Virus record (IMG/VR): IMGVR_UViG_3300038429_000040
Span: 1-26,104 of that record
Strand: one strand, 5' to 3'
Length of the DNA stretch: 26,104 nt
Source of the DNA: a virus
Shown: in pieces, positions 3,141 through 26,104 of the stretch
Layout of the letters: every line of letters starts with the position of its first letter
Numbering within the stretch: position 1 is the first letter of the stretch
Notes under the pieces: model-generated
The model's input: only the letters and a program-made list of their open reading frames with translations
Told to the model about the DNA's origin: nothing
The model's database searches: none
Program-made: the position numbers and the translations under genes

Positions 3141-3697
3141 ATCTGCTTCACCATGACGCCGATTCCGAGATTCGGGATGGTCATCTTCCACGGGTCGGCC
3201 CAGCACGAGAACTTGATGAACGTCGCGTCGGATTTATCCTCATACTCGCGGCGCAGGTATTCCCAGAATTGCATCGCCCCCGGCTCCTTCTTGTTGTCAA
3301 CGTCGTGGAATGCGATGAGCCGTGGGGCGTTCGGTCCCCATAACTCATAATCGGCCTTGATGCCTTCATAGGTGTGGTCGCCGTCAATGAACAGCAGGTC
3401 GATGGGTGCGTGCCCGCTCAAGTCGAAATAATCCTGAAGCGTTAAGGGGTTGTGGCTGTCGCCGAGAATATCGGGCTTGAAGATGCCGTCGGTTTTCAGG
3501 TCCACGCCGAAGTGCCGGGCGTGCATCGCCGCCTCGTAGAACCGCTTCTGGCGGTTGTCCCACGTGCCGATCTCGACGACAACCGGGTCCGTGATGTCCC
3601 GGTGCGCGAAATAAGCCGCCGCGAATTCGATGAACATCTGCCACTCGTTGCCGTTCTGAAGCGGCATCATGAAGTCGGAGAAAATCCTCAGGTACAT
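3137..3697 (-). CDS. Class I SAM-dependent methyltransferase (Methyltransf_24-like)
   Basis: The 186-residue product shows the SAM-binding strand and loop VVVEIGTWDNRQ at about 39-50, the acidic strand HFGVD at 62-66, and the motif LLFIDGDHTYEGIKADYELW at 101-120, followed by IAFHDV at 128-133. These are typical of the CmcI/Methyltransf_24 group, often found beside glycosyltransferases, where they O-methylate sugars. It starts by TAATG overlap with the gp10-like gene (AAGGG about eight bases upstream) and ends by ATGA overlap with the four-domain fusion, so translation is probably coupled to both. The likely target is a glycan made by neighbouring enzymes; this is inferred from context only. 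Confidence 0.82.
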   Translation of the reverse strand: MYLRIFSDFMMPLQNGNEWQMFIEFAAAYFAHRDITDPVVVEIGTWDNRQKRFYEAAMHARHFGVDLKTDGIFKPDILGDSHNPLTLQDYFDLSGHAPIDLLFIDGDHTYEGIKADYELWGPNAPRLIAFHDVDNKKEPGAMQFWEYLRREYEDKSDATFIKFSCWADPWKMTIPNLGIGVMVKQI

Positions 3698-4182
3698 TAT
3701 TTCAGCCCTTCATCTTCATTGAGCGCCGCTTGCAGGCGCGGATACACATCATTCATGTGAGAGAAGAACGCCGGCGAGAGATACGGGCGCCCGGCCACGT
3801 AGGTGGCGACATAACTCGACGTGACGCTCTGCTTCTCGGCATGGATTGTGTGCCCGAATTCCACGAAGGGGGCATATTCCACGTTCGTCCCGACGACGAC
3901 GGCGAACCCGCCCGCCGGGACATCGGTCGGCTGACCCACGCCGTCCGCCGTATCAGCCTTGCCGTCAACCGAGCCGAACCCCTTGCCGCTGTCGGTCCAG
4001 TTGTAGGAAATCGAGGCGCGGAGCCGGCCCGTTTGCCACGGGCACATTGACTTCGCGTCACGCTCGATGTCGGCGGCGACCCATTTCAACGCCTGTTGCA
4101 TCTTCGCCTGCTTGCGCTTGCCCCACTCTTGGAGGTTCGAGAACAGCGCATCCAGCCCTTCGATTTTGACGTTGATTTCCAT
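3697..4182 (-). CDS. HK97 gp10-like head-tail protein
   Basis: The 161-residue protein has the family marks of HK97 gp10-like proteins: IEGLDALFSNLQEW near the N-terminus, TGRLRASISYNW after a helix, VEYAPFVEFGHT in the middle, and GRPYLSPAF near the C-terminus. These proteins act at the head-tail junction or early in tail assembly. The start is ATG at 4182, which overlaps the head-closure stop as TGATG; a longer in-frame start at 4233 is less likely because it lies inside that gene. A loop rich in Gly and Asp (DSGKGFGSVDGKADTAD) lies between the conserved blocks and looks flexible. Confidence 0.85.
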   Translation of the reverse strand: MEINVKIEGLDALFSNLQEWGKRKQAKMQQALKWVAADIERDAKSMCPWQTGRLRASISYNWTDSGKGFGSVDGKADTADGVGQPTDVPAGGFAVVVGTNVEYAPFVEFGHTIHAEKQSVTSSYVATYVAGRPYLSPAFFSHMNDVYPRLQAALNEDEGLK

Positions 4183-4514
4183 CAGCGCACTTCCATCACG
4201 GCGAGTTCCATGTAGGTCTTGGCCATGTCCCATTGGATGATGAGTTTCACGTCATACACGGAGCCGTCATCCAGAACCAACCGGTCGCCCTCTTTGAGTC
4301 CATCAAGATATTCGAGATAGACTTTGTAGTTGGCGAACACGGTTTTCTTATCGTAGTCCCACAGCATCTCTTTCGTGAACAGACTGTTGAACCGGCACGG
4401 GACGTTGGACCGGACGAGCGCGTAGGACTTGGAAGAGTTCCCGCCCAACTCGTCCGCCGTATAGACGGCCCGCGTGATGTTGACGGTGCGGTTGTAGAGA
4501 TTGTCGCGACTCAT
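4182..4514 (-). CDS. Head closure / head-tail joining protein
   Basis: The 110-residue product is the size of SPP1 gp16-like or HK97 gp7-like head closure proteins. It has an N-terminal segment NRTVNITRAVYTADELGG, a central VPCRF strand, and a beta-rich second half where EGDRLVLDDGSVYDVKLI resembles the small-barrel pattern of this group. Such proteins bind under the connector and seal the filled head. The start has GGGGG about six bases upstream (TTTTCG spacer). Its place between connector and gp10-like gene supports the assignment. Sequence identity in this family is low, so the exact family name is uncertain. Confidence 0.7.
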   Translation of the reverse strand: MSRDNLYNRTVNITRAVYTADELGGNSSKSYALVRSNVPCRFNSLFTKEMLWDYDKKTVFANYKVYLEYLDGLKEGDRLVLDDGSVYDVKLIIQWDMAKTYMELAVMEVR

Positions 4515-4623
4515 CGAAAACCCCCTGGATTGCGCTGTAGGGCGTTTTCCGGCTCGACCCCGTGTTGTACCCGGGCAACGGATAGAAAACCGTTCCTAGC
4601 GCATCCTAGACGGCAAAGACGGC

Positions 4624-4815
4624 TCATTTATCCCCCTCCCGCAGACGTTTCTCCTTCTCGGCGGGGGCGAAGTCCCACCGCCAGGCGTCCGTCACGCCCC
4701 GGCGCTTCATGTCCTCATATTGCTCGGACACCCATTGCATCAGCACCGGAATCTCGTTGGCGTCCGAGGTCCAGAGTTTCACGCCCACGTCGTTGATGGA
4801 GATCGTCGTCGGCAT
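4624..4815 (-). CDS. Small protein of unknown function (63 aa)
   Basis: This short gene starts with an ATG that overlaps the connector stop as TGATG, giving MPTTISINDVGVKLWTSDAN and a charged helical C-terminus ending in KEKRLREGDK. I do not recognise the family. The length, coupling and position between connector and head-closure genes suggest a minor head or assembly protein. About 109 bases follow before the head-closure start; they hold a weak five-base-pair inverted repeat (4577-4594) and a short direct repeat GACGGC but no gene that I can support. Confidence 0.65.
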   Translation of the reverse strand: MPTTISINDVGVKLWTSDANEIPVLMQWVSEQYEDMKRRGVTDAWRWDFAPAEKEKRLREGDK

Positions 4816-5972
4816 CAGATGACTACCTTCTTGAATTGTGCGAGTTCGGCCCGCACCTGCTCCGGCATCCCGTTCTTGAAGTCGGCGAGCGTGTAGGTGT
4901 AGTCGCCGAGCCGCTCCTCCTTGAGCGCGAGGTCTTTGGAAATCATGTTGTATTTGAACTTCACCAACTCCAGACACGCGAGTTCGAGTTCATACGGTAT
5001 CTGCTGATATCCGGCCCAGTAGGTGATAAAGTATTCCAGGCTCCGAGAGAACCCGCTCGGGTAGTAGAGAATGCCGGGATTGCGCCGCTCATCCGAGCCC
5101 GGTCCTTTCTCGAAGAGGTAGTAGTCGAGATAAAAATTCGTGACCTCGATGCCCAGCCGGCGCGGATAACAATCCCAGCGGGCTCCGTAGGACGGGAGCA
5201 ACTCTGTCGTCTGCAAATTTGAGACGTAGATGTTGTTGGCGAAATAGATGCCATAGAGTTCGAGATACCAACCGGGGACCGCGTTGATAGCGTCGCGCAG
5301 AAGTCCGATGTTCGCATAATCGGAAAGTTTCAGCGTGGCGACGGTCACGTTGTCCGCCGTCAGGATGAACGATGTGTCGGTGATTTCGATGTACGCGGTG
5401 CTGGCGGCGTTCGAGCAAGCGATGAGCCCCGCCGTCGTGCGTCCGCACTTAATGCTGTTGACGCGGTTCACCGGATACTGGTCCAGCACGAGGCGCGGGT
5501 TGTCGTTGCCCCAGTAGACTTCGTTCGTATATTGACGGGCGACGAATTTGCGGTTGCAATAGCGCTCGATATAGTCCGAGGCGCGCTCGATGAGCCGCTC
5601 AACAGTCCATGCGTCGATGGTCTGCAACGTCGTCGGCGCGTTGAGACACGCCATTGACCCAGTCGAGACAAGATAAGCAGAGTCGGATTGCTCCGCGCAG
5701 AGTAGGCCTGCCGACCAGCCGGAGGTTGCGTTGATGCCGGCAACGAGTTCGACCATCGTGTTGTAGTCGGGGTCGGTGAACGTGAACGTCGTTGTCCCGC
5801 CATCTGTCCCACCCGTTATGATGAGCGTCAAGGCAGCGCTGGACGCCTCGACGGTAGCGGCGGTCGCGTCCGTTGCGGTCGCGGAAACCCAGAGTGCGTT
5901 CTTGCGCGGCGATACGCCGAGATAGGCGAGCGCCTCGTCGGTCGATGTCAATGCGTATTTATTCAGACTCAT
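4815..5972 (-). CDS. Head-tail connector (gp6/gp15-like) with two inserted domains
   Basis: The connector core is visible as TSTDEALAYLGV at the start, then WTVERLIERASDYIERYCNRKF (122-143), LVLDQYPVNRVNSIKCG (161-177), and the C-terminal helices PYELELACLELVKFKYNM (326-343). Proteins of this family form the ring below the portal and usually have roughly 100 to 200 residues, whereas this one has 385. The extra length sits in two Thr/Ser-rich beta-like inserts, about 26-115 and 180-260. The inserts resemble each other: YNTMVELVAGINATSGWSAG in the first and IGLLRDAINAVPGWYLELYG in the second. They may form surface domains on the neck. AGGAG six bases upstream supports the ATG at 5972. Confidence 0.75.
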   Translation of the reverse strand: MSLNKYALTSTDEALAYLGVSPRKNALWVSATATDATAATVEASSAALTLIITGGTDGGTTTFTFTDPDYNTMVELVAGINATSGWSAGLLCAEQSDSAYLVSTGSMACLNAPTTLQTIDAWTVERLIERASDYIERYCNRKFVARQYTNEVYWGNDNPRLVLDQYPVNRVNSIKCGRTTAGLIACSNAASTAYIEITDTSFILTADNVTVATLKLSDYANIGLLRDAINAVPGWYLELYGIYFANNIYVSNLQTTELLPSYGARWDCYPRRLGIEVTNFYLDYYLFEKGPGSDERRNPGILYYPSGFSRSLEYFITYWAGYQQIPYELELACLELVKFKYNMISKDLALKEERLGDYTYTLADFKNGMPEQVRAELAQFKKVVI

Positions 5973-5981
5973 GGCTGACTC

Positions 5982-6257
5982 CTAGAGCGGTTCCTCGACC
6001 TCGAACGATGAGGTGTCGCCATAGCCCTTCCAGTCGGGCGTCTCGACGTATGCTTGTATCTGCCAACGGCCGGCCTCGTTCAAATCGTTCGCCACGGTGA
6101 TGTAATAGATGACCGTCGGACCGGACTGCGCGGCGGTCCAGTTGCCTTCGATTCCGGTCGGCGTTCGGTAGTGAATTTGCATGAGCGTGGCCGCCGAGAC
6201 ATCAACGCCACAATCGAGTTCGATTGTCGTGTCGGTTTCGCCGAGGTATATAGGCAT
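5982..6257 (-). CDS. Small beta-sandwich virion protein (BppU-N-like pattern)
   Basis: The 91-residue protein is predicted from its alternating pattern to be all beta: TTIELDCGVDVSAATLMQIH, then GIEGNWTAAQ, VIYYITV, and GRWQIQAYVET. This resembles the N-terminal domain of BppU-type baseplate proteins and other small immunoglobulin-like virion domains, but I cannot name a family with certainty. A strong AGGAG lies seven bases before the ATG. It follows the repeat protein by ten bases and precedes the connector, so a structural or adhesion role is likely. Confidence 0.6.
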   Translation of the reverse strand: MPIYLGETDTTIELDCGVDVSAATLMQIHYRTPTGIEGNWTAAQSGPTVIYYITVANDLNEAGRWQIQAYVETPDWKGYGDTSSFEVEEPL

Positions 6258-14350: not shown

Positions 14351-14527
14351 TCATTTTGCCAGCGGTGGGTTCTCCACCATCTTGTTCATCGGCGGCACGC
14401 TGACGAACTTCGCGATGCCCTGCGAGACCCAGACGGCGGCGCAGTCCGCCGTGACGCTCCGCCGCTCGCCGCGATGGGCGCACTTCCAATCGACGAGGAA
14501 CTCGACCTCAATCGTTGTGGGTGACAA
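14351..14527 (-). CDS. Small head-type protein (58 aa), probable TTG start inside the endonuclease gene
   Basis: The reading frame encodes TTIEVEFLVDWKCAHRGE, then CAAVWVSQGIAKFV and a Pro/Lys tail. This resembles small phage proteins of the type K-V-x-F-L-x-D-W-x-G...G-x-A-x-x-L-V-x-x-G-I-A found near capsid genes. No ATG or GTG lies at the expected place. A TTG at 14527..14525, with GGAGAGG four bases upstream, gives MSPTTIEVEF and a full-length protein. The last six codons of the HNH endonuclease overlap it in another frame. The frame also extends upstream to an ATG at 14584, inside the endonuclease gene. The endonuclease insertion may have replaced the original start. Confidence 0.6.
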   Translation of the reverse strand: MSPTTIEVEFLVDWKCAHRGERRSVTADCAAVWVSQGIAKFVSVPPMNKMVENPPLAK

Positions 14528-15290
14528 TGCGCCTCTCCACGATCTTAAGAGAGTGTAACAGTCGAAGTTCTTGATAAGTCTCATAAAAGAACTGCCACTT
14601 TTGCCGAGTTTCTGGCTTACCGTAGGTTAGGGAATGGCAAGAATCGCACAGAGCAATGAGGTTGATCTGGTCTTCGTTTTTCTTATCTCCGTCAATATGG
14701 TGAACGGGCAATGCTCGCCAAGTAGCCACCGCCCCGCAAAATTGGCACAAATGCTTATCGCGCTGGCGAACTTCATATCTAGTGCGTCTCACAAATGCGC
14801 TCGTATAGGGTTCATAGGAGGCGCCTCCATTCCATGTCGGACTCTTCTCCCCGCTTCGCCCATACATCGGATTTCCTGGACCAGTACACCCGAGACGGAA
14901 GCAAGAGCGAGAACAATAGATACGCTTCTGGTCAGGGGTTTGTGTTGCGGGAACAAAAATCAACCTCCCGCAATGGGTGCAAGGAATAGCGACTTTCTCC
15001 TCCCAGCGATAGTTATTCGCCCCGCATAGCCATAGGTGATAGCAACGACTAGAACAAAAATTCCTTGCGTTGTTTGTTCGATATTGCTTACCCATGAACA
15101 CTCGTCCGCATTGCTTACAGGCATATTCCCTGGTCTTGCCCTTCCAGCGCGGCGCACCTTTGCCGGATTGAAAAACGCCTAAGCATTTCTTAGAGCAACA
15201 GATTGCGGGGCGTTTGTTGATGAAATAATTGCTCACATAAAACGGCTCCCCGCAAACAACGCACATAATAATGACGCCTTTTTTGCTCAT
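14508..15290 (-). CDS. Free-standing HNH homing endonuclease with zinc knuckles
   Basis: The 260-residue protein has three zinc-knuckle-like units of CxxC...Cx3C type at about 10-36, 58-83 and 104-130, then a GPGNPMYGRSGEKSPTWNGG segment resembling NUMOD3-type DNA-binding motifs (137-156). The HNH domain follows: LCQFC at 181-185, LPVHHIDGDKKN at 194-205 and NLIALCDSCH at 210-219. The start at 15290 overlaps the GT4 stop as ATGA; an alternative ATG at 15266 has AAAAAAGG ten bases upstream and begins directly at the first knuckle. The gene is visibly more A+T-rich than its neighbours and uses codons such as CTA that they avoid, consistent with recent arrival. Such enzymes cut a target allele and spread themselves by homing. 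Confidence 0.88.
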   Translation of the reverse strand: MSKKGVIIMCVVCGEPFYVSNYFINKRPAICCSKKCLGVFQSGKGAPRWKGKTREYACKQCGRVFMGKQYRTNNARNFCSSRCYHLWLCGANNYRWEEKVAIPCTHCGRLIFVPATQTPDQKRIYCSRSCFRLGCTGPGNPMYGRSGEKSPTWNGGASYEPYTSAFVRRTRYEVRQRDKHLCQFCGAVATWRALPVHHIDGDKKNEDQINLIALCDSCHSLTYGKPETRQKWQFFYETYQELRLLHSLKIVERRIVTHND

Positions 15291-16537
15291 GCTTTTGATA
15301 TCTTGCGTTCCATATCTACAAATAGTGGCTCCCAAAACTTTGGGAATACGTTGTCCCAGTCATACTCCAGAATGCCGCTTCGGACCTTCTGCGCTATCGC
15401 GCCGCGGTCGCACGGCTTCACGGCCGCGTAGCCTTCTTCGAGCGCATCCAGCACGGCCCCGGCGTCACAGCGGAGGCGGAAGCCTTCCGTACCGAGCCAC
15501 TCGCGGTCGGCGAACTTGTCCGTCTTGATGAGCCAGCCGGTCTTGCAGAGTTCCGGCCCGCTGGTCGTATCGGTCACGACGACGGGAACGCCGCACGCCT
15601 GAGCCTCGATGATGGGAACGCCGAAGCCTTCGCCGCGTGTCGGGAGCGCGAATAGGTCGAACCCGTTGTAGATATTCGCCATCATCGTCGCGTCGATCCG
15701 GCCCATCCACATCGCGCCCTGGTCCGGCCATAGCACCCAATCGTTGATGCCGATGTTCTTGGCGATTTGCTGATAGTTGAGCGTCTCGGCGAGAATCCCG
15801 CCAGCGTGTGAGTGCAGATAGAGCCGCGCTTCTTCGTGCCGCTCGTGGAACACTTTGAACGCCTGCATGAGCGGGATGTAGCCCTTGCGGTCATCGCCGT
15901 AGTTAAGCCCGACGGCACCGATGAGGAACTCGCCGCCCTTGAGCCCGACGGCCTTGCGGAACGCCTCGCGCCCGGCTGGGCGGATCGTGAACACCGACGC
16001 GTCCATGCCGAGCGGCGCGTAGATAGGCCTTAGCCCCATCGCCTCAAGTTCTCGGATAGCGTGCCGCGTCGGGCCGATGACGATTCCCGGCTCGACGAAT
16101 ATCTCTTTCATGCGCTCCGATATCCATTCGGAGTCGATGTACGCGACGGCCGCCCATTGCTCTTTCGGGAACAGACGGTGGCCGCACATCGTCCAGATGT
16201 CCCACGACGTGAAAACGTAATCGAACTTCTCTTGCTCCATCATCTTGTTGATGTAGTAGCCGTTCGTGCCGTCGAACACATCGATGCCCTGGACTTCCTC
16301 GTAGAGTTTGCCGAGCAGGGTGGACGGGTCTTGATGCGCGTCAACCGCCGTGCCAACCTCATCGACCAACTCCATCATCCGGGCGCGGTCATACCAATAA
16401 TGCCACCCGGTCGTCTGATGCTTCGTGGCGATTCGGACGTAGTGACCCGCGTCCGTCAGCCGCCGCACCGCTTCAGCGGTGACGATGCCGTATGCGGTCT
16501 TGCAGTCCGGCTCGCTCGAACTCCAAATAATTCTCAT
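15287..16537 (-). CDS. GT4-family (GT-B fold) glycosyltransferase
   Basis: The 416-residue protein starts MRIIWSSSEPDCKTAYGIVT, giving the N-terminal Rossmann-like domain of a GT-B enzyme. The second domain contains GAVGLNYGDDRKGY at about 207-220 (nucleotide-sugar loop), LYLHSHAGG at 239-247, and the retaining-enzyme motif RGEGFGVPIIEAQACGVPVV at 301-320, where Glu303 and Glu311 form the E-x7-E pair. GT4 enzymes transfer a sugar from an activated donor with retention of configuration. AGGAG five bases before ATG supports the start. It is the first gene after the capsid block and opens the accessory region. Acceptor and sugar are unknown. Confidence 0.88.
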   Translation of the reverse strand: MRIIWSSSEPDCKTAYGIVTAEAVRRLTDAGHYVRIATKHQTTGWHYWYDRARMMELVDEVGTAVDAHQDPSTLLGKLYEEVQGIDVFDGTNGYYINKMMEQEKFDYVFTSWDIWTMCGHRLFPKEQWAAVAYIDSEWISERMKEIFVEPGIVIGPTRHAIRELEAMGLRPIYAPLGMDASVFTIRPAGREAFRKAVGLKGGEFLIGAVGLNYGDDRKGYIPLMQAFKVFHERHEEARLYLHSHAGGILAETLNYQQIAKNIGINDWVLWPDQGAMWMGRIDATMMANIYNGFDLFALPTRGEGFGVPIIEAQACGVPVVVTDTTSGPELCKTGWLIKTDKFADREWLGTEGFRLRCDAGAVLDALEEGYAAVKPCDRGAIAQKVRSGILEYDWDNVFPKFWEPLFVDMERKISKA

Positions 16538-18120: not shown

Positions 18121-19371
18121 TCAGGACGTGGTCGAGGCGAGTCCGACGAACGGGGAATAGGTGGCGGAGTTGTCCTTCAAGGTCAACTTCGTCTGGGGCC
18201 AGCATTGCCCAGCGACGCGCAGAACGAACCGCCATGCGGTCTCGTCGTAGTCGAATCTGATGTGCGTGGAGGCGTCGATGGTGATGGCCTGGCGATCGCC
18301 GATGAGGTAGTAGGAGAAGTCGGCGAAGATAATGTCGTTTGCGGTTGCGAGATGGGGCAGTTTTTCCGTGATGAACACGGGCCGGCCCAGGAGCGTCCAG
18401 TTGATGCCGAGGTGTGCATCCGGCTGAAAGACCAGGATGCGGGTATACTCGGTCGAGAGATACTTGGTGCCCATCGTGATGAGTTCGGGAATGAGGCTCG
18501 GGTTGATGACCCAGACCGCTCGATTGAGCGACGTGGGGAGCATGGCCGCATACATCTTGGCGATGTCGTCATAGGAGATGTGCGACACGACGGCCCGATA
18601 GACGGAAGAGAGACAGCCGCAGTTCAGGACGCCCAGGGGCATACCGGCACCGGAGCCACGCAGGAAAGCGTAGTCCTCGTTCCACGCCCACGCCTTCGCG
18701 AACTGCCGCTTGAGCATCGGCTCCAGCGCGATGGCGCTGTCGGCGAGCAATTCGTTCGAGGCATAGGTGATGCCGGCCAATTTGTGCGGCGTCAATTCCA
18801 TCTGACCGAACAGCGGTGCGGTCCCAGACTTCTGGGCCGCTTCTGCCGTCCAGTAGGCGATGATGCCGCCGAACAGGGACGAGACGTGGCTCGTGTCGGC
18901 GACATAGGGGATTTTCAGCGAGTCGGTCGTCATCGGAATGACGGTCGGCCCGCACCGGCGCACGATTTCATCTTCGATTGCCAGTTCCTGCAGGTCTGCC
19001 CTATAGACCTCAGGGACGAGGAAACCGCCCATTGAGTCGTCGGCGATTTCCGAGTGTCCCGTCGTGCCGGCCCCGCCTTTCTCCTCGACGTAGAGTTTGG
19101 CGAGACGCGGGTCGAGAGTGCCCGACTTGCGGGACCGATAGATGGAGTCCAAGAAATACCGGAAGCCCTTGAACTCCTTGGCGGCTTCATTCGCCGCTTT
19201 TTGCTTTTCCTCGGGGATGAGGAATTTCTTATCGGCTTCCTTGATTTTGGCCTCTGCGTCGGCGCGCTGTTCCTTCATAGCGTCGGCGACGTACTTGCCC
19301 ACCGCCTCGTTGACGGCGAGTTTGACGGCCTCGTCGATTTGAGCATTAGCCTGTTTGGTTTCGTCGCTCAT
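18121..19371 (-). CDS. HK97-fold major capsid protein, first copy, with N-terminal delta domain
   Basis: The 416-residue protein has a highly charged helical N-terminus (about 1-70, KQANAQIDEAVKLAVNEAV and following), which looks like the delta or scaffolding domain removed by the prohead protease. The capsid fold begins near IADDSMGGFLVPEV (109-122) and includes ELTPHKLAGITYASNELLAD, FLRGSGAGMPLGVLNC, LLGRPVFITE and DFSYYLIGDRQAITIDAS. This layout is standard for HK97-type coat proteins processed during maturation. It follows the protease by four small genes. The ribosome site is weak (GGAT six bases before ATG), which is surprising for a coat protein and suggests coupling to the preceding small gene that ends four bases upstream. 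Confidence 0.92.
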   Translation of the reverse strand: MSDETKQANAQIDEAVKLAVNEAVGKYVADAMKEQRADAEAKIKEADKKFLIPEEKQKAANEAAKEFKGFRYFLDSIYRSRKSGTLDPRLAKLYVEEKGGAGTTGHSEIADDSMGGFLVPEVYRADLQELAIEDEIVRRCGPTVIPMTTDSLKIPYVADTSHVSSLFGGIIAYWTAEAAQKSGTAPLFGQMELTPHKLAGITYASNELLADSAIALEPMLKRQFAKAWAWNEDYAFLRGSGAGMPLGVLNCGCLSSVYRAVVSHISYDDIAKMYAAMLPTSLNRAVWVINPSLIPELITMGTKYLSTEYTRILVFQPDAHLGINWTLLGRPVFITEKLPHLATANDIIFADFSYYLIGDRQAITIDASTHIRFDYDETAWRFVLRVAGQCWPQTKLTLKDNSATYSPFVGLASTTS

Positions 19372-19776: not shown

Positions 19777-20033
19777 GTCAATGTGTATTGAGGCATCCCG
19801 TTGTTTGAATCAACGGACTGGGTGCCGTTGCCTATGGTCCCGCCTCCCCAATAAGGAGTCGTTATCGGATCCCAATGAGGCCAGTATCCCGGCCATTGAT
19901 AAGGCGGATATGACGGCCAATGCTCGATGACCCGGATGATGGTCGTCGGAGGCTGTGTCGTCAGCGCCTCGACCTGTTTCTTCAGGGCTTCGAGTTCGCG
20001 GAGCAGGTCCGCATGTGTCGGTTGCTTTTTCAT
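19773..20033 (-). CDS. Small coiled-coil protein with aromatic, proline-rich tail (86 aa)
   Basis: Residues 4-26 form a predicted coiled coil (HADLLRELEALKKQVEALTT). The rest is unusual: repeated Trp, Tyr and Pro (EHWPSYPPYQWPGYWPHWDP), then Gly- and Asn-rich sequence. I do not recognise the family. The ATG overlaps the protease stop as ATGA, with AAGG four bases upstream. Its place between protease and capsid genes and its coiled coil would suit an assembly helper or minor head protein, but this is inference from position. Confidence 0.62.
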   Translation of the reverse strand: MKKQPTHADLLRELEALKKQVEALTTQPPTTIIRVIEHWPSYPPYQWPGYWPHWDPITTPYWGGGTIGNGTQSVDSNNGMPQYTLT

Positions 20034-21316
20034 CTGACCTTACCTCTCAGTTTATCAACGGCGAGAGCGATGCCCTCGTTGATTTGCTTCCGCAGTTCTT
20101 CGGGCGGGATGGCCTTCAGAATATCGAGCGCCACCTGTTTCACCATCTCCTTGTCGAGCGGGATGGCGGCTGGCGGGTTCAACTTTTCGGGCTGTTCAAC
20201 TTTCGTGAACACTTGCTTTTCTTGAACAACAGCGGGTAGAGCGCGAATCATGTCCTGTGTATCAAGAATCTCGCCCAGGATGTTCTCGTACATCCCGATG
20301 GTCTCGTCGTGCATGGCGTCGCGAAGAGCATCAGAGCGAGACAAGTTTACCACAAACGGAATCATCGTGTCCTCATACACCGCTTGAGCGATGGTATCGT
20401 GGATTTCCTTGTGGTCGTTGACCCAGGCGCGCGCCGTCTCCATCGTCCACTTGTCTTTGTCGAACAGGTAGGTGATGATTTTCTTGCAGTCAACGCAGTA
20501 CAGCGATTTGATGCCCTTCGCGTCGGACAACGACATCGTGCGAATTTTGTGACCGCTATGGTCGCCCTTGTCCACGGGGATGCGGATGTAGTTCTCCGTC
20601 ACCTCGGGCTTGCCGACCGCCTCGTCGAGTGCCTTCTCGACAACGGGTTCGACGGCCTCTTTCGCCATCTCGACAGTCGCGGACGAGTCCGGCGCGTCGG
20701 GGTTGAATTCTTTCGCCGTCGCGGCGGAGATGATACCCTTGCCGACAGCCAGAGTCAGCGCCTCGGGGCATGACGGGATAGGCACGGCGCTGTATTCCAA
20801 CAGTTCCCACTTCTTGTAGATGCGTCGCGGTGTGTCATCGCCCGCCTTCTGCACCGGCTCTTCCCACTCGATCGGGATGAAGCCGATAGACCATGCGCGG
20901 CAGAGCGGTCCGCTCCCGCCGATGTCCTCCGTATAGGCGCGATAGACCTCTTCGGCCTTCGCGGAGTTGGCAAACACCGTCTTGGCGAGGATACCCTTGC
21001 CGTCTTTGCGGAGCCACATATTCTTCGCCACCGGCAGGGAGTGGTAATCATGCCCGAACGGCACGACCGGGTTCTCGCGGAAGTGCTTCTCCTGCAGACC
21101 GTCCGGCAGGATGACCTCGCCGTCGCGGTCCTTGACGCCGGTCGTGATGTATGACACCACGGACCGCTCGGAGGGGTTCGACTCGACCGTCTCGGAGGTG
21201 CCGTACTTGACGACAATCTCCAGGTCGTCTTTCTTGATTTTCAGTCGCTGGGCAACCTCGGCGGCCTTGTCGGGATATACATCGACGAATTTCTTTCTCT
21301 CGGTAACAAAATCCAT
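20030..21316 (-). CDS. Prohead protease (HK97 gp4-like, S78 type) with long C-terminal extension
   Basis: Residues 50-190 form the protease: SVVSYITTGVKDRDGEVILP, PVVPFGHDYHSLPVAK with the probable catalytic His89, CRAWSIGFIPIEWEE with the probable nucleophile Ser143, and ELLEYSAVPIPSCPEA at 171-186. These blocks are diagnostic of herpes/HK97-type prohead proteases, which cut the delta domain from the capsid protein. The extension (190-428) includes a CVDCKK pair (274, 277), FDKDKWTMETARAWVNDHKE (285-304) and a helical C-terminus; similar blocks occur in other environmental phage proteases, but their role is not known to me. It may serve as built-in scaffold. AGGAG seven bases before ATG supports the start. 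Confidence 0.87.
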   Translation of the reverse strand: MDFVTERKKFVDVYPDKAAEVAQRLKIKKDDLEIVVKYGTSETVESNPSERSVVSYITTGVKDRDGEVILPDGLQEKHFRENPVVPFGHDYHSLPVAKNMWLRKDGKGILAKTVFANSAKAEEVYRAYTEDIGGSGPLCRAWSIGFIPIEWEEPVQKAGDDTPRRIYKKWELLEYSAVPIPSCPEALTLAVGKGIISAATAKEFNPDAPDSSATVEMAKEAVEPVVEKALDEAVGKPEVTENYIRIPVDKGDHSGHKIRTMSLSDAKGIKSLYCVDCKKIITYLFDKDKWTMETARAWVNDHKEIHDTIAQAVYEDTMIPFVVNLSRSDALRDAMHDETIGMYENILGEILDTQDMIRALPAVVQEKQVFTKVEQPEKLNPPAAIPLDKEMVKQVALDILKAIPPEELRKQINEGIALAVDKLRGKVR

Positions 21317-21329
21317 TGCCTGTCTCCTT

Positions 21330-21770
21330 TTACTTCAGCGAGAATTCTCCTCGCTTGTGGGCCTGCTTCAAGGCCGCGTTTATCTCCGGGAGGTGCTTCC
21401 CGTACCAGATGCGGAACACCTCGGGGTTCACTTTCAATATTTTTGCCATCTTGTCCATGTCATAGACCTGGGCGTTCAGGAACTCGACGACCTTCTTCAA
21501 GTCGATGTCCGGCAATGCGTCCGGCGACACGACGCTCGACGGATACGTCTCCATCAGCGTGCGCAGTATCGCCTTGACCTTGCCCTGCTGTTGGTCCATG
21601 ATGCGGTTCATGGTGTGCGCGCCGGCGTTGACCCACTTCAGCAACCGCTCCAGGTTCAGGTCGAGTTCAAGAGCGATTTTCTCGCCCGTCCAGGAGAGCG
21701 TCTCGGTCATGTACTTCCATGCGACCCAGCGCTCCAATGCCTCTAGCGTGTCATACTTCCAATCGGTCAT
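21330..21770 (-). CDS. Protein with two helix-turn-helix-like segments (146 aa)
   Basis: Two segments look alike and resemble the helix-turn-helix of homeodomain-type phage proteins: KIALELDLNLERLLKWV (31-47) and KMAKILKVNPEVFRIWYG (107-124). Between them lies a helical stretch with QQQGKVKAILRTLMETY. The protein may bind DNA, perhaps as a small-terminase-like or packaging factor, but its place between MuF and protease genes is unusual for that and no family is recognised. The ATG overlaps the MuF stop as ATGA, with GAGGAGG just upstream, so expression is probably coupled and strong; a longer in-frame start at 21836 lies inside the MuF gene and is rejected. Confidence 0.68.
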   Translation of the reverse strand: MTDWKYDTLEALERWVAWKYMTETLSWTGEKIALELDLNLERLLKWVNAGAHTMNRIMDQQQGKVKAILRTLMETYPSSVVSPDALPDIDLKKVVEFLNAQVYDMDKMAKILKVNPEVFRIWYGKHLPEINAALKQAHKRGEFSLK

Positions 21771-24700
21771 GTTTCCTCCTCTTCGCTTTCGCTTTCCGCC
21801 TCTTCGATCTCCGGCACGATGGGTAGAATACAGCACCGGCAGTTCGGATGGTCGGGCGGCTCGTTCTCGCCGTCAGAGAAGTCCTCATCGAGCGCGACGA
21901 CCTCGCCATCGAGTACGGCGCAATCTTCGCAGTTGTGGACAAGGATGCCGTTAGCAAAATATGTATGTGCGCCCTCAACTTCCAGATTGAACACAAAGAA
22001 TGGTTGACTTCCGAGGACGAGAGTGGTATAATAACTATAGATACCATGTATATATGTGCTTATTGCCACAAGCAATTTATCCCAGCTTATCAATTGCAAA
22101 CTCGCTCTCGCCCTAAGTATTGTTCTCGGACGTGTTACCATCGAGCCACGAAATTTGGGCAAACCAAGACGTGCCCAGTTTGTGGCAAAGCGTTCTATGC
22201 CTACCCCTCCCATAGGGACAAAACGCATTGCTCGCGGGCTTGCTTGGCCGCTTCGGCTCCGATCATTACGAAGACCTGCCCGGTCTGCGGGAAGAATTTT
22301 GAGGTTCATAAGTCTATCGCTCATCGCTATAAGGTTTGCAGTTGGGCCTGCCGGACAAAGTTCCTCGTGCGGAAAATATGCCCCCGATGTGGGAAACAAT
22401 TCGTCGCATATACGCCTCGGATGAAGCATTGCTCGGAAGCCTGCCGTCGCCCACCAGTATTCGTTGACTGCTTGAACTGCGGCAAGAGATTTAGAACGAC
22501 ACCATCGACAAACGCAGAGCGAAGATTCTGTTGCTTCTCGTGTTGCCGCAAATATCACGGCGAGACTTCGATTGAGCGTGCGGTTCGTGAAGCCCTGGAG
22601 CGTTTGCGTATTCCTTTCAGCCCAGAGCATCCCGTCGGGAGACTCAGCGTTGACTTTTATCTGCCTCAGCAGAACGCGTGCCTTGAGATAGATGGAACGT
22701 ATTGGCATTCTGACCTGGCGAAAGATGCCAAGCGCGACGCGAGGTTGCGTGAACTTGGCTATCTTGTTTTCCACATTGCCGAGAGTGAAATAAAAAACGC
22801 GAGTGACCTGGACGACTTGATTGTCACTCGTCTTCAGTCGGCTCCCATGTCGTAGGGCTTGAATTTCCCGCCAGCCATAGCCAACTTCATACACCGGATG
22901 CTCGGCAGTTGCCGTCAGCCGTCGCCCATCGGATGTCTCTATCTCGATCATCTTGCCAGCATATCTGCGCCGCATAGTCCGCGAGACCCGTCGCCAGCCC
23001 GCATGAGTAAGAACTTCGTCGCCCTTCTGGATATCCTGGATATGCGTCTCTCCGCTTCTGGTGATGACATTCGTGTTCGCCGGAAAACAGGTCAAATCAT
23101 CCTCACTCGCCATCCATTCCTTTGATTCCAGCACGCTCTGCTTGTACGTCTCGACCGCCGCGGCGTTCGATGCGCGCAACGTCTCGGTGCGCGCTATGCG
23201 CTCGGCGCGATATCGGTCCCACGACTGGAACATCTCCGTGATGCGCCGCGTGAGGTCCGGAATGCCTTCTCCGGCTATCATCCCGGCGCGCAACGTGTCG
23301 GTGAGCATCTCCTGGCTGGTCGTCTGCAACTGGTCAGCGAGTTTGATGGTGTACGTGCGAAGATACTCCACGAGCGCAGGAGAGGTCATATCGAAGTCAA
23401 TGCCGAGTCCGTAGTTGTCGTTTAGAGCGTCGCCCTCGGCGTCCAGTATCGCTTTGAATATGGGTCGCAGTTCCTCGGCTGTCAAGTTCTTCATCGCGCT
23501 GGAGCCGGCTAACCACCGCTCGATGAGGTCGGGGCGGTAGTCTTTGCCGGAGCCTCGACAAACAAGGCAAGGCGTGTTGATGAGCCCCACGTCCGTAGAG
23601 ATGTGAGCGTAGCCTGTTCCCTTGCAGTCTGGGCAATCTTTCTGGTGGCCGGAGTGCTTCATGTGCGCGAGCATGATTTTCCGCTCATGCGCCCAGACGC
23701 GCCGCATCGCGGCAGAGATGCGATGCTCGAACCGTTTGAGCCGTCGATTCAGAGCGAGAATGACGCGCCGGCGTTCCGTCATACTGATTTTGCGCCCGCG
23801 GGGCCGTTTCACGACAGCCAGGACTGCGGCCTGGCTGTCAAAATGGCTCCTAGACCCTCCCAGCGGGGTTTCCGGGGCGATTAGAGCGTGAGCCGTGGCG
23901 TGTTCGTTCGCCTTGAGCGCCTCGGCGAGTTTCGCCGTGAGCGTTTCCGGATGCAGGCGCGCCTCCAACTCTACGCGGCTCGCTTCATGATGCGCTCGGT
24001 CATACGGTATCCCCGTCAGCATCAGCCCGCGCTCCGTCAATTCGTGAAGCGCGAAGAACGGCATCTCGGGCGGCTCATCCTCATCGTCGAGCCACATCTC
24101 GCCGGGCGGGATGAATGTCGCATAGACGAGGTCGTGGCCGCCTTCCGTGAAGTCGTCATCGTAGTCCTTGCGGATGAGGTCGCCGTCCACGAGCCAGCAC
24201 ATGACGTAGGCGTTGCTGTACGCGTCGATTTGCTCGAGGTGAACGCGCTCGGCGGCGTCCGGCGCATCCATCGGGCCACGATAGACACCGCCGGCCGACT
24301 GGCGCTCGTCGCGCTCTTTGCGGTCGGCGTATTCCAGCGCGTGGTCGTAATCGTCACCGCCGACCATCAGGCGGTACTCCGTCGCCATGTGGTCGATATA
24401 GAAGCCGTATTCATACGCGAACACGGAGTTGTCAATCCAGAACTCTTTCTCCGGAATGAAGAAGAACCGGTAGTGCTGGCCGAAGTTCGTGAAGTCCGTG
24501 TCTATCTCGCGACGGATGTAGTCGCCGTGGACAAGCCAGACTTGGAACTCGCCGCGTGTTTCGTAGAGATGGTCATGCGCCAACATGATTTCGTCCGGCG
24601 TGACCGTCTCCTCACCCGTGTCACCGGCGGCCCGAACAACCGCGTTGTCCACATGAACAACACCGTTGCCCACCCGTGCGGCTATCGTCTCGGCCAGACG

Positions 24701-24781
24701 TTCGGCGATACCGTCACGCGCCGCTTCCGCCAGAAAGCGGTCGGCCACCGTGACGGCGAGGTCAGCACGACGTTGTTTCAT
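21767..24781 (-). CDS. MuF-type head morphogenesis protein interrupted by an intein
   Basis: The 1004-residue precursor would give a 618-residue spliced product. Residues about 65-160 and 180-275 are two copies of one domain (VWLVHGDYIRREIDTDF and CWLVDGDLIRKDYDDDF). The second copy carries HELTER (246-251) and AHHEASRVE, a possible metal-binding set. CPDC and CLVC at 383-408 form a DnaJ-like zinc knuckle. The MuF domain covers about 480-564, with RAERIARTETLRASNAAAVE, then resumes after the intein with CEDCAVLDGEVVALDE and PPDHPNCRC. MuF proteins are minor head proteins bound to the portal. The intein replaces nothing; it sits before the conserved Cys of the TCxxC motif. ATG at 24781 overlaps the 28-residue gene's stop as ATGA, with GGAAG upstream. 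Confidence 0.87.
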   Translation of the reverse strand: MKQRRADLAVTVADRFLAEAARDGIAERLAETIAARVGNGVVHVDNAVVRAAGDTGEETVTPDEIMLAHDHLYETRGEFQVWLVHGDYIRREIDTDFTNFGQHYRFFFIPEKEFWIDNSVFAYEYGFYIDHMATEYRLMVGGDDYDHALEYADRKERDERQSAGGVYRGPMDAPDAAERVHLEQIDAYSNAYVMCWLVDGDLIRKDYDDDFTEGGHDLVYATFIPPGEMWLDDEDEPPEMPFFALHELTERGLMLTGIPYDRAHHEASRVELEARLHPETLTAKLAEALKANEHATAHALIAPETPLGGSRSHFDSQAAVLAVVKRPRGRKISMTERRRVILALNRRLKRFEHRISAAMRRVWAHERKIMLAHMKHSGHQKDCPDCKGTGYAHISTDVGLINTPCLVCRGSGKDYRPDLIERWLAGSSAMKNLTAEELRPIFKAILDAEGDALNDNYGLGIDFDMTSPALVEYLRTYTIKLADQLQTTSQEMLTDTLRAGMIAGEGIPDLTRRITEMFQSWDRYRAERIARTETLRASNAAAVETYKQSVLESKEWMASEDDLTCFPANTNVITRSGETHIQDIQKGDEVLTHAGWRRVSRTMRRRYAGKMIEIETSDGRRLTATAEHPVYEVGYGWREIQALRHGSRLKTSDNQVVQVTRVFYFTLGNVENKIAKFTQPRVALGIFRQVRMPIRSIYLKARVLLRQIKVNAESPDGMLWAERNTQTLQGFTNRTLNRSLAVIFAATREATESSLCVCRWCRSKSLAAVQAVNEYWWATAGFRAMLHPRRICDELFPTSGAYFPHEELCPAGPTANLIAMSDRLMNLKILPADRAGLRNDRSRSGQASPRAMRFVPMGGVGIERFATNWARLGLPKFRGSMVTRPRTILRARASLQLISWDKLLVAISTYIHGIYSYYTTLVLGSQPFFVFNLEVEGAHTYFANGILVHNCEDCAVLDGEVVALDEDFSDGENEPPDHPNCRCCILPIVPEIEEAESESEEEET
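22004..22032 (+). promoter_or_regulatory. Near-consensus sigma70 promoter for the antisense endonuclease
   Basis: TTGACT (22004-22009) and TATAAT (22027-22032) are separated by exactly 17 bases, and TGG directly before TATAAT adds an extended -10 element. A transcript would start around 22039, only about seven bases before the endonuclease ATG at 22046, so the mRNA would be leaderless or nearly so; no Shine-Dalgarno site is visible. The promoter lies inside the codons for the C-terminal splicing domain on the other strand. Confidence 0.72.
22046..22855 (+). CDS. Intein-nested, antisense zinc-knuckle homing endonuclease (Vsr/DUF559-like)
   Basis: This is the only gene on the plus strand. Its 269-residue product has five CxxC...Cx3C zinc knuckles at about 4-30, 43-66, 78-102, 112-133 and 142-167, mostly of the form CPxCGKxF...HCSxAC. 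The C-terminal domain (174-265) looks like a PD-(D/E)xK nuclease of the Vsr/DUF559 type: SIERAVREALERLRIPF, LSVDFYLPQQNACLEIDGTY with Asp203, Glu214 and Asp216 as candidate catalytic residues, then RDARLRELGYLVFHIAESEI. The ATG is chosen because the first knuckle begins at once and a promoter lies just upstream; the frame is open further 5-prime, to 21848. It is more A+T-rich than its surroundings. It presumably cuts intein-less MuF alleles and spreads the intein. Confidence 0.87.
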   Translation: MYICAYCHKQFIPAYQLQTRSRPKYCSRTCYHRATKFGQTKTCPVCGKAFYAYPSHRDKTHCSRACLAASAPIITKTCPVCGKNFEVHKSIAHRYKVCSWACRTKFLVRKICPRCGKQFVAYTPRMKHCSEACRRPPVFVDCLNCGKRFRTTPSTNAERRFCCFSCCRKYHGETSIERAVREALERLRIPFSPEHPVGRLSVDFYLPQQNACLEIDGTYWHSDLAKDAKRDARLRELGYLVFHIAESEIKNASDLDDLIVTRLQSAPMS

Positions 24782-24864
24782 TGTTTCTTCCGTCCCCAGA
24801 TGAACCACGTCAGCCCCATGATGATGGTGAACAGCAGAATGACGATGACTTTGACGAGACTCAT
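24778..24864 (-). CDS. Small single-pass membrane peptide (28 aa)
   Basis: The frame is ATG at 24864 to TGA at 24778, giving MSLVKVIVILLFTIIMGLTW and a charged end FIWGRKKQ. It has one clear hydrophobic segment of about 20 residues followed by a positive tail. GGAGGCGAG directly precedes the ATG, the ATG overlaps the portal stop as ATGA, and its own stop overlaps the MuF ATG in the same way, so it exactly bridges two essential head genes. It is too short for most gene finders. A role in membrane association, lysis or simple translational coupling cannot be told apart from sequence. Confidence 0.65.
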   Translation of the reverse strand: MSLVKVIVILLFTIIMGLTWFIWGRKKQ

Positions 24865-26104
24865 CTCGCCTCCAATCGTTCCTTGATAATATCCATCGCG
24901 CTCCGCGCCAGGTTCTCGGCGAGCGTCTCTTCCTCTTCCTGCGCCATCTCCGGGTTCGGCACCGCGTTCGCGGTGATGGAACTCAGCGGCACCATCAGAT
25001 TGCTCACGAGCGGGTCGTCGCCGCCGTCAACGGGTTCTTCGCCCAAGTCGGCGCGGGCCTCGTTGATGGCCAGGATGCCGGCGGCTGTGTAGGTCTTGCG
25101 CTCGTTCATCTCCAACTCTCGGTTCGCCGGCACCGGGTCTGAGAATGACAGGAATATCTTCTCGTCAAACAGCGGACAGAGCGATTGATTGATTTTTTCT
25201 TCCAGTTTCCGCAGACGGGGCAGAATGCCGTTCTTCGCGTGTCGGTAGTCGCCGACCTCGGCGTTAGAGCGCGAAACGCCTTGCGCCGTCAACACGGAAA
25301 TGTTGACATCCAACGCCGCGCAGATTTCTTCTCTATTCAGTTTCCGCCAATCGACGTTCGCCATCTCCTGCATCGTCATCGTCGTCTTGACGAACTTAAC
25401 GTCTGGCGGCAGGATGGCGGTCTTGCCCGCCTTGGCGTTGCCCTGATAGCGCTGGGAGAAGGTCTCCGCCAGCCGGTCACGCTCTACGGCGCTCACGTTC
25501 TCGCCGAGTTCCAGCACGCCGCCGACGTTGGCGCGGTTCGCAAATAACGCCTCCTCCAACTCGTACAACTCGCGGTTCGTGTAAATGGCATCGGAGATGC
25601 CTTGAACCGGGCCGAAGCCGGAGAAGAAGTTGCGCGGATTCGGGCGCCGGAAGTAGATGATTTCCTCTGGCGGGAACTCATGCTTCGCCCGCCCGCGCTC
25701 GTAGATGTAGCCCTTGATGAACGCGCTGGCGTCGGGTATCGGGTTGATGTACTGCGCGCAAACGGGCCATATCTCCGTCGGCACGCCGAGCGTCTTGTCG
25801 GGCGGTATCCACCAGTACGCCTCTCCGGTCAGGTCCATATCGACGATGGTCATGTACCACAGGTCCGACGCTTCAATCCACGGGTTCGGGTTGATGAGCA
25901 GGTCGATGAGCGGATGGTCCGTGATTTCATCGACATCGTCGGAGTTCTCCATCTTGACGACGAGGTTTGGGTTCGACTCCAGCCATTTACGGCGCGGGCG
26001 GTTGATGGATTTCGTGCGGCAGGTCGTGAACTTCTGGCCTGTCGTCTCTTTCGTCGTGTAGAGGTGCCACGGCACGGCGGCGCAGGTGTTGCCGTTCAGA
26101 TTGA
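24861..26104 (-). CDS. Phage portal protein, 5-prime end outside the window
   Basis: At least 413 residues are visible. The frame continues past the GTG at 26075 to the window edge with NLNGNTCAAVPWHLYTTKE, the usual N-terminal block of HK97/lambda-type portals, so the true start is further upstream. Later blocks include DHPLIDLLINPNP, LTGEAYWWIPPD, EIWPVCAQYINPIPD, EIIYFRRPNPRNFFSGFGPV, NVGGVLELGEN, and MANVDWRKLNREEICAALDVN. Portals form the dodecameric ring through which DNA enters the head. The C-terminus is acidic and helical (AQEEEETLAENLARSAMDII). Gene order portal, MuF, protease, capsid supports the call. Confidence 0.93.
   Translation of the reverse strand, partial: NLNGNTCAAVPWHLYTTKETTGQKFTTCRTKSINRPRRKWLESNPNLVVKMENSDDVDEITDHPLIDLLINPNPWIEASDLWYMTIVDMDLTGEAYWWIPPDKTLGVPTEIWPVCAQYINPIPDASAFIKGYIYERGRAKHEFPPEEIIYFRRPNPRNFFSGFGPVQGISDAIYTNRELYELEEALFANRANVGGVLELGENVSAVERDRLAETFSQRYQGNAKAGKTAILPPDVKFVKTTMTMQEMANVDWRKLNREEICAALDVNISVLTAQGVSRSNAEVGDYRHAKNGILPRLRKLEEKINQSLCPLFDEKIFLSFSDPVPANRELEMNERKTYTAAGILAINEARADLGEEPVDGGDDPLVSNLMVPLSSITANAVPNPEMAQEEEETLAENLARSAMDIIKERLEAR

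Follow-up and report, generated by a model that had tools for sequence, protein, structure and literature searches.

The locus considered here raises the question of whether one stretch of DNA can encode an intein on one strand and a homing endonuclease on the other, using the same triplets for both, and whether such an arrangement is confined to a single virus. The window, i.e., the whole stretch of DNA that was analysed (26,104 nucleotides; IMG/VR virus record IMGVR_UViG_3300038429_000040, positions 1 to 26,104), contains a MuF-type head protein gene on the minus strand, together with a plus-strand nuclease gene that lies within its intein (Table 1). A codon-aligned antisense endonuclease of the homing type, contained within a contiguous intein, is the supported and best reading of these features, with the window very probably containing a mobile intein whose homing endonuclease has been overprinted on the opposite strand; expression, splicing, cleavage and homing are what we infer from the DNA. 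Both reading frames, the splicing blocks, the predicted folds, the codon avoidance, the recurrence and the mosaic distribution are established. The arrangement is real and was confirmed to be a recurrent architecture, rather than a single odd locus.

Table 1. Features of the MuF locus, in positions of the window.
Feature	Coordinates	Strand	Basis or remark
MuF-type head protein precursor with intein	21767..24808	-	1013 codons and stop
N-extein, ending in ...SEDDLT	23090..24808	-	PF04233
Intein, 386 codons, C1 ... HN, followed by Cys+1	21932..23089	-	TIGR01445 and TIGR01443, Hint fold
Hint domain, N-terminal part (intein residues 1-102), blocks A and B	22784..23089	-	model strands to residue 102
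Sense linker (intein residues 103-363)	22001..22783	-	no endonuclease domain, no confident fold
Hint domain, C-terminal part (intein residues 364-386), block F to HN	21932..22000	-	TIGR01443, model
C-extein, starting with CEDCAVLDG, stop codon included	21767..21931	-	MuF frame
Antisense endonuclease gene, 269 codons and stop	22046..22855	+	same triplets as intein frame
Vsr/I-Bth0305I-like catalytic domain, nuclease residues 172-269	22559..22852	+	structure match
Promoter-like site TTGACT-17-TATAAT, TG before second hexamer	22004..22032	+	13 nt before nuclease ATG
Two-way coding segment, nuclease 3' end against Hint strands 84-87 and 92-102	22784..22855	.	model

The MuF precursor contains a contiguous intein

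The minus-strand precursor is part of a head-gene module that also includes genes for a portal protein (24861-26102), a maturation-protease-like protein (20030-21316) and the major head protein (18121-19371). Profile searches revealed matches to PF04233 and TIGR01641 (MuF/SPP1-gp7-type) flanking the intein, with PF04233 corresponding to precursor residues 503-574 and the MuF match picking up again at residue 958-960; the host frame is contiguous across the intein. That the splicing blocks are found on the minus strand, as held by the original prediction, was borne out by matches scoring above the cut-off to TIGR01445 (intein N-terminal region; precursor residues 574-640) and TIGR01443 (intein C-terminal region; precursor residues 939-960), and by a class 1 cis-splicing signature comprising C1, TAEH as the block B TxxH motif, a terminal HN and Cys+1. 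Within the N-extein, a DnaJ-like CxxCxGxG zinc motif (PF00684, below cut-off) was seen at minus-strand residues 387-423.

Searches of the precursor with Pfam and TIGR profiles revealed no endonuclease family fused in the intein frame, such that this is not a canonical endonuclease-bearing intein. A decayed sense endonuclease in the linker was ruled out by this absence of a family match and by the lack of a confident fold. A group I or group II intron was also considered and rejected, with no such match at gathering score being obtained in Rfam searches of the window and loci L021, L035, L036, L055 and L121, where the sole match was to a tRNA in L035.

A nuclease gene shares the triplets of the intein

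Between the splicing blocks, a plus-strand zinc-knuckle endonuclease had been proposed, with its codons and those of the intein occupying the same triplets. Indeed, the product of the plus-strand ORF contains zinc-knuckle motifs and matches DUF559 above the Pfam cut-off, the ORF lies inside the open minus frame, and the two frames are in register. The long frames within the intein are the sense frame of 386 codons and an aligned antisense frame of 307 codons, the next longest being 127 codons. As the nuclease spans intein codons 80-348, its 3' end lies opposite the codons of the Hint strands modelled at residues 84-87 and 92-102. The earlier view of the stretch as encoding a nuclease and an intein linker thus holds for the linker and is too narrow in extent, since the overlap also reaches Hint strands (residues 84-102). 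The overlap goes further in the phages Snoke, SaI_NFG_5577, Aaphi23 and PvVp04_M, whose nuclease frame extends to intein codon 2 to 6 and so covers the splicing blocks as well.

The nuclease and the intein were next modelled. The nuclease model (mean pLDDT 82.6; eight aligned sequences) matched I-Bth0305I (3r3p) over residues 172-269 (Z 13.2, 94 residues, rmsd 2.8, 27% identity) and Vsr (1cw0; Z 12.1), with a Vsr-type PD-(D/E)XK fold being recognised over residues about 168-268. EDxHD is the catalytic-residue motif of Vsr-like/I-Bth0305I homing endonucleases; E177, D203 and E214 are invariant in all eight aligned nucleases. A protein of the mitochondrial ribosome that has this fold but is not a nuclease (9i05_Xr) reached Z 14.0 against the nuclease model and, with non-nuclease chains scoring equally high, the fold by itself is no proof of nuclease activity. 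The intein model is weak overall (mean pLDDT 38), and as it was based on four aligned sequences rather than eight, its confidence is not strictly comparable to that of the nuclease model. Here, residues 1-102 and 364-386 form Hint strands, with the Hint parts mostly at pLDDT 50-84, while the sense linker is at 20-33 (residues 111-360 at 20-28). The closest structure is that of the gp41-1 intein (6qaz; E 8.5e-9, TM 0.68 by target length).

The locus is also found on seven IMG/VR contigs (L002-L008), all of which retain both frames, with those of L005 and L008 reaching the contig ends. The nuclease of L002 is identical to that of the window (allele A), while L003-L008 present a second allele (allele B; 726 of 810 bases identical in L003) that differs by about 10% in the insert, is 6 bases longer due to an in-frame indel and has an open minus frame in every copy. 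The differences between the alleles are clustered as an island, with 90 of 113 base differences falling within columns 651-950 of the precursor alignment. When the observed A-to-B changes were placed at random, a mean of 3.5 antisense stops appeared and 2.7% of the runs yielded none, a simulation that by itself offers modest support. Neither the eight contigs retrieved by the nuclease nor the seven retrieved by the N-extein included an intein-less allele of the MuF gene of the window.

The antisense arrangement recurs in other phages and host proteins

The check suggested with the original prediction, which consists of looking between the blocks of MuF inteins for plus-strand Vsr/DUF559 genes, was positive in many phages. 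Named phages were retrieved by searching with the intein-bearing protein. In KMB36 and Vibrio phage 1.266.O, the inter-block DNA encodes, antisense and in register, a helix-turn-helix and DUF559/Vsr-like nuclease. The antisense arrangement was also seen in fEg-Eco06 and Vibrio phages 1.082.O and 1.265.O, in each of seven further records checked (Snoke, SaI_NFG_5577, Fosterous, Vivi2, Aaphi23, 1N2-2 and PvVp04_M), and in six of another seven (vB_StyS-sam, MSW-3, P12620-1, Malisha, a Helicobacter prophage and Vibrio phage 1.113.A). Together, 18 named phage or prophage records, as well as IMG/VR contigs, present an antisense nuclease within an intein. The arrangement is absent from P1068, where the nuclease is free-standing beside an intein-less MuF gene, and from MaeS, where the nuclease sits between genes; no antisense nuclease was found in Yoloswag, and VIPECOTPH05A served as intein-less comparator. 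When two of these nucleases were used as tblastn queries, 48 and 102 phage records were matched, with the checks covering the named records.

Among IMG/VR loci, L035 and L036 contain MuF inteins of the same design, with nucleases respectively 46% and 41% identical to that of the window. A further IMG/VR scan (A5), considering 31 of 33 loci after L126 and L127 were omitted as 100% copies of L125, revealed a clean aligned antisense frame in 29 loci, 28 with block A in the printed flank. The same scan of genome contigs yielded one locus, in an Aggregatibacter prophage, while a plasmid search returned seven weak records. The host proteins of eight A5 loci included MuF (three loci), Phage_min_cap2 (three loci), a protein with no host domain match (one locus) and, in L155, a uracil-DNA glycosylase with DNA polymerase A. 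A TxxH pattern sought in a fixed slice of the intein missed 9 of 16 rows, in which TPNH, TPKH or TANH was recognised by eye. The alignment of the PHROG family phrog_15127 runs through the entire Aaphi23 intein. As such, the original reading of the window as containing an antisense endonuclease in an intein stands, although the arrangement is neither a one-off nor restricted to MuF.

These loci probably form a broad class of two-strand phage inteins, with MuF, Phage_min_cap2 and uracil-DNA-glycosylase/DNA-polymerase hosts and at least two nuclease families (zinc-knuckle and helix-turn-helix). The same reading includes an extreme form (Snoke, Jerseyvirus-type, Aaphi23 and PvVp04_M), in which some 270-325 codons would probably specify two unrelated enzymes on opposite strands and the block F codons would also provide the nuclease with its ribosome-binding site and start codon.

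Conservation of the nuclease frame and signs of mobility

It could be argued that the antisense ORF encodes a decayed nuclease or one serving a defence or domestic role other than homing, the intein now being immobile. For the window group, with no known intein-less allele, homing is indeed unobservable. Still, this explanation appears unlikely, given how the nuclease frame is the better conserved. In 12 of 13 pairs, identity was higher in the nuclease frame than in the sense frame over the same codons (the exception, KMB36/fEg-Eco06, being a tie), and the changes between alleles A and B numbered 22, 13 and 50 at nuclease codon positions 1, 2 and 3, respectively. The match of the nuclease fold to a homing endonuclease also stands against an immobile intein, as does the apparently recent transfer of inteins between close relatives elsewhere.

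Such transfer was considered in five close pairs. Three of these are more similar in the intein than in the extein, which suggests homing: KMB36/fEg-Eco06 (892/894 vs. 933/1044), Vibrio phages 1.266/1.082 (0.984 vs. 0.858) and Snoke/SaI (0.839 vs. 0.696). The reverse holds for Fosterous/Vivi2 (0.895 vs. 0.956) and window alleles A/B (0.921 vs. 0.988), where, judging from the alignments, it is the insert and not the host gene that diverged or was replaced. The mosaic evidence is thus not uniform, with three of the five pairs pointing to homing. The existence of close relatives without an intein also speaks for spread. DNA resembling the KMB36 MuF gene was found in 496 records, four of which cover at least 80% of the query. 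At the empty site of intein-less VIPECOTPH05A, the sequence reads ACGATT/TGT, as compared to ACAACG/TGC in both intein-bearing phages, KMB36 and fEg-Eco06. No clear co-conversion gradient was detected in flank identity. A strong co-conversion tract was likewise rejected, as none was seen past the junction, where KMB36 and fEg-Eco06 have adjacent bases in common that differ in one intein-less phage.

An intact through-frame distinguishes the window from a split intein

A second possibility, namely that the intein is split and acts in trans around a free-standing antisense nuclease, the through-frame of the window being incidental, has in its favour that the Hint domain is closest to gp41-1, a split intein, and that exactly this layout exists in L037. 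There, an antisense nuclease 46% identical to that of the window lies between the halves of a split MuF intein (2644-3012, minus strand; 2986-3807, plus strand; 3580-6216, minus strand). The C half, a separate ORF of 122 codons with an ATG of its own, encodes the C-intein and C-extein; the N half is also a separate ORF. With the host frame of L037 split, the codon constraint is gone, and nine antisense stops are found among 30 Leu/Ser-box codons (14.6 expected). Were splitting the rule, antisense stops would pile up elsewhere as they have in L037, whereas the window, allele B, L035, L036 and every other embedded member counted have retained the through-frame. A split intein is accordingly a quite improbable account of the window, and a contiguous intein with an antisense endonuclease remains the preferred one.

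Antisense stop codons are avoided where the host frame is open

TTA, CTA and TCA in the nuclease would be barred because they are stop codons in the precursor. The 16 Leu and 18 Ser codons of the window nuclease include none of the three, just as had been stated. The other nuclease-like gene of the window (14508-15335, minus strand), which is free-standing and scores just below the Pfam cut-off for HNH (21.3 vs. 21.4 bits), does use CTA near position 15027, as had also been noted, and contains five such codons. The chance of such avoidance in the window nuclease alone was P = 0.033 according to the codon usage of 16 phage genes, and P = 5e-4 according to its own use of A-ending codons in other codon boxes. 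Moreover, the caution raised earlier concerning long aligned antisense frames in other genes was well placed, as such runs reach 352 codons in ordinary window genes. On its own, the window is therefore only suggestive.

Comparison with related genes, including the free-standing relatives called for in the original prediction, was thus decisive. In the first 16 cases, no Leu or Ser codon was TTA, CTA or TCA. These cases and 21 of the 29 clean A5 loci (L125, L132, L135, L136, L137, L144, L146 and L149 being omitted as copies or fragments) were clustered at 60% identity. In the 29 representatives, each sharing less than 60% identity with the others, none of 873 Leu/Ser-box codons was TTA, CTA or TCA, as compared to 158 expected on the basis of the A-ending usage of each gene. 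The zero-stop clusters include members at 43-46% GC, as well as the AT-rich Helicobacter prophage (0/24 vs. 6.7 expected). Six further named records also contained no antisense-stop codons.

As controls, ten genes were picked by hand, of which nine free-standing or split-intein homologues were counted and L055 was kept apart. The nine contained 80 antisense-stop codons, with 107 expected. L153 contained 3/42 (5.4 expected) and P1068, counted separately, 12/27 (15.6 expected), the nuclease of both lying tail-to-tail behind an intact MuF gene that has no intein. The null, which overshoots by about a quarter in the nine controls, is incapable of explaining zero. In a separate scan (A1) of the best 80 of 115 relatives, 73 loci contained at least one such codon, the loci without any being L032-L036 (inteins), L055 (a methylase insert) and L052. 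The last is an AT-rich, unrelated HNH gene that avoids these codons outside an intein, and so counts against a perfect rule. The scan sets were collected by protein similarity, independently of open frames. Because it relies on comparison across relatives and not on the window alone, the antisense constraint can be considered settled.

The remaining explanation, i.e., that GC content and codon bias account for the open antisense frame and that a nuclease simply landed in the intein gene, draws on the 352-codon runs and the P of 0.033 but is already refuted for the class by the 0 of 873 count, AT-rich and 43-46% GC members included, and by the near-expected counts in free-standing and split homologues, and has next to no likelihood in the window, where the insert needed the right register and a length that is a multiple of three as well.

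Putative expression signals and a model for the two-strand element

The promoter-like site upstream of the nuclease gene is the sole such site in the region 21850-23000 and is equalled by 0.5% of 120-base windows taken at random from the contig. Allele B keeps both hexamers and their spacing. Transcription from this site would yield a nearly leaderless mRNA; no Shine-Dalgarno match was found before the window nuclease ATG. A promoter-like score of 11 of 12 matches was obtained for 6 of 16 members (the window, L006, L021, L112, L122 and L123). A promoter in every member was rejected, as L022, L113, L036, L118 and L119 were at background. With starts being picked mechanically, the nuclease start coincides with the block F His codon in 16 of 32 members and lies elsewhere in the other 16. 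For 15 of the 16 block F starts, the complement of the codons that follow provides a Shine-Dalgarno match of at least 4 bases.

In the model that we favour, translation of the minus-strand MuF gene would generate one long precursor, in which the Hint domain, parted in sequence by some 260 unstructured linker codons, would fold and excise itself to release mature MuF. The linker would be the mere complement of a Vsr-like (I-Bth0305I-type) zinc-knuckle endonuclease on the plus strand, probably transcribed from its own promoter-like site within the DNA encoding the C-terminal part of the intein. As a free protein, the nuclease would cleave those MuF alleles of co-infecting phages that lack the intein, and repair off the intein-bearing copy would install the element in full. 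TTA, CTA and TCA would be kept out of the nuclease by selection on the host gene, while selection on the nuclease would fix the rest.

Such carriage of a homing endonuclease by an intein lies outside textbook accounts, in that the two share DNA and not polypeptide, so that the nuclease and splicing could be expressed and evolve separately. The arrangement provides a natural experiment on antisense coding, with some 30 lineages in which both strands are open and split or free-standing relatives in which they are not, and is a plausible intermediate between fused, split and free-standing homing endonucleases. Moreover, a nuclease gene on the opposite strand would lie concealed behind many database entries for phage "intein linkers" and "head proteins".

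Relation to known systems

Like canonical large inteins, such as PI-SceI, the window intein comprises a Hint domain inserted in-frame at a conserved residue and associated with a homing endonuclease. In those inteins, however, splicing domain and endonuclease belong to one polypeptide, whereas here the endonuclease is encoded on the opposite strand and the excised protein is without a nuclease domain. In fractured genes, reportedly described in 2009, a free-standing gene for a Vsr-like endonuclease is said to separate the halves of a split intein. Such genes share with the window the I-Bth0305I/Vsr-like kind of nuclease and a Hint domain nearest to gp41-1, yet involve two ORFs around the endonuclease, as seen in L037, their relative; the window host gene is unbroken, with one frame running through the antisense nuclease.

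In the available portion of PMC11855218, the ShiLan domain is presented as a hidden HNH endonuclease in an insert of an actinophage methylase, encoded on the same strand and out of frame. As far as that portion goes, in both systems the host frame stays open through an insert that a homing endonuclease overlaps in a different frame. The window differs in that its nuclease is Vsr-like rather than HNH, lies on the opposite strand and is found within a splicing element, the intein with its Hint domain. The same portion cites, for overlapping reading frames, a preprint on actinobacteriophage inteins of "non-canonical architecture" (Gosselin, Arsenault and Gogarten, 2025), which may cover the Gordonia MuF inteins considered here. 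Should that preprint describe antisense endonucleases, then what is new here would be reduced to the breadth of the arrangement and the codon evidence. Inteins in the MuF proteins of KMB36 (PMC11162368) and of UPWr_S Salmonella phages (PMC8425127), which, from the portions of these papers available, are the same as or close kin of those considered here, are noted there with no mention of an antisense gene. A literature search, mostly short of full text, revealed no report of an antisense endonuclease in an intein; an earlier description might be contained in Dassa (2009), the Gosselin preprint or Gorbalenya (1998).

Related nucleases in other genomic settings

In the course of these searches, related or similarly hidden nucleases were encountered in other settings. 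Neither the frame of the TerL intein of Tetrasphaera phage TJE1 (HQ225832; L115) nor its antisense strand encodes a nuclease, but a second frame on the intein strand encodes a hidden HNH_3 endonuclease (E 5e-14). Nuclease relatives lie tail-to-tail behind intact, intein-less MuF genes in L153 (nuclease, 2965-3837, plus strand; MuF, 3768-4622, minus strand) and L161 (nuclease, 1495-2394, plus strand; MuF, 2388-3164, minus strand), possibly reflecting an ancestral or an escaped state. In L009 and L010, a 34%-identical nuclease (about 4974-5795, plus strand), located outside any intein, begins where a tail gene of the same strand ends.

Finally, L055 contains a zinc-finger nuclease (2992-3783, plus strand), kin to F-LimVII-type homing endonucleases, antisense within a minus-strand DNA methylase frame (1573-3927), between the DPPYGLS and FMGKCWD motifs of the methylase; the same is true of L159 and L160. 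No Hint blocks and no Rfam intron were seen in L055, and the methylase frame is open (0/24 box codons vs. 7.1 expected). L055 is an antisense counterpart of the ShiLan insert, and hints that antisense overprinting can protect a host gene without any intein.
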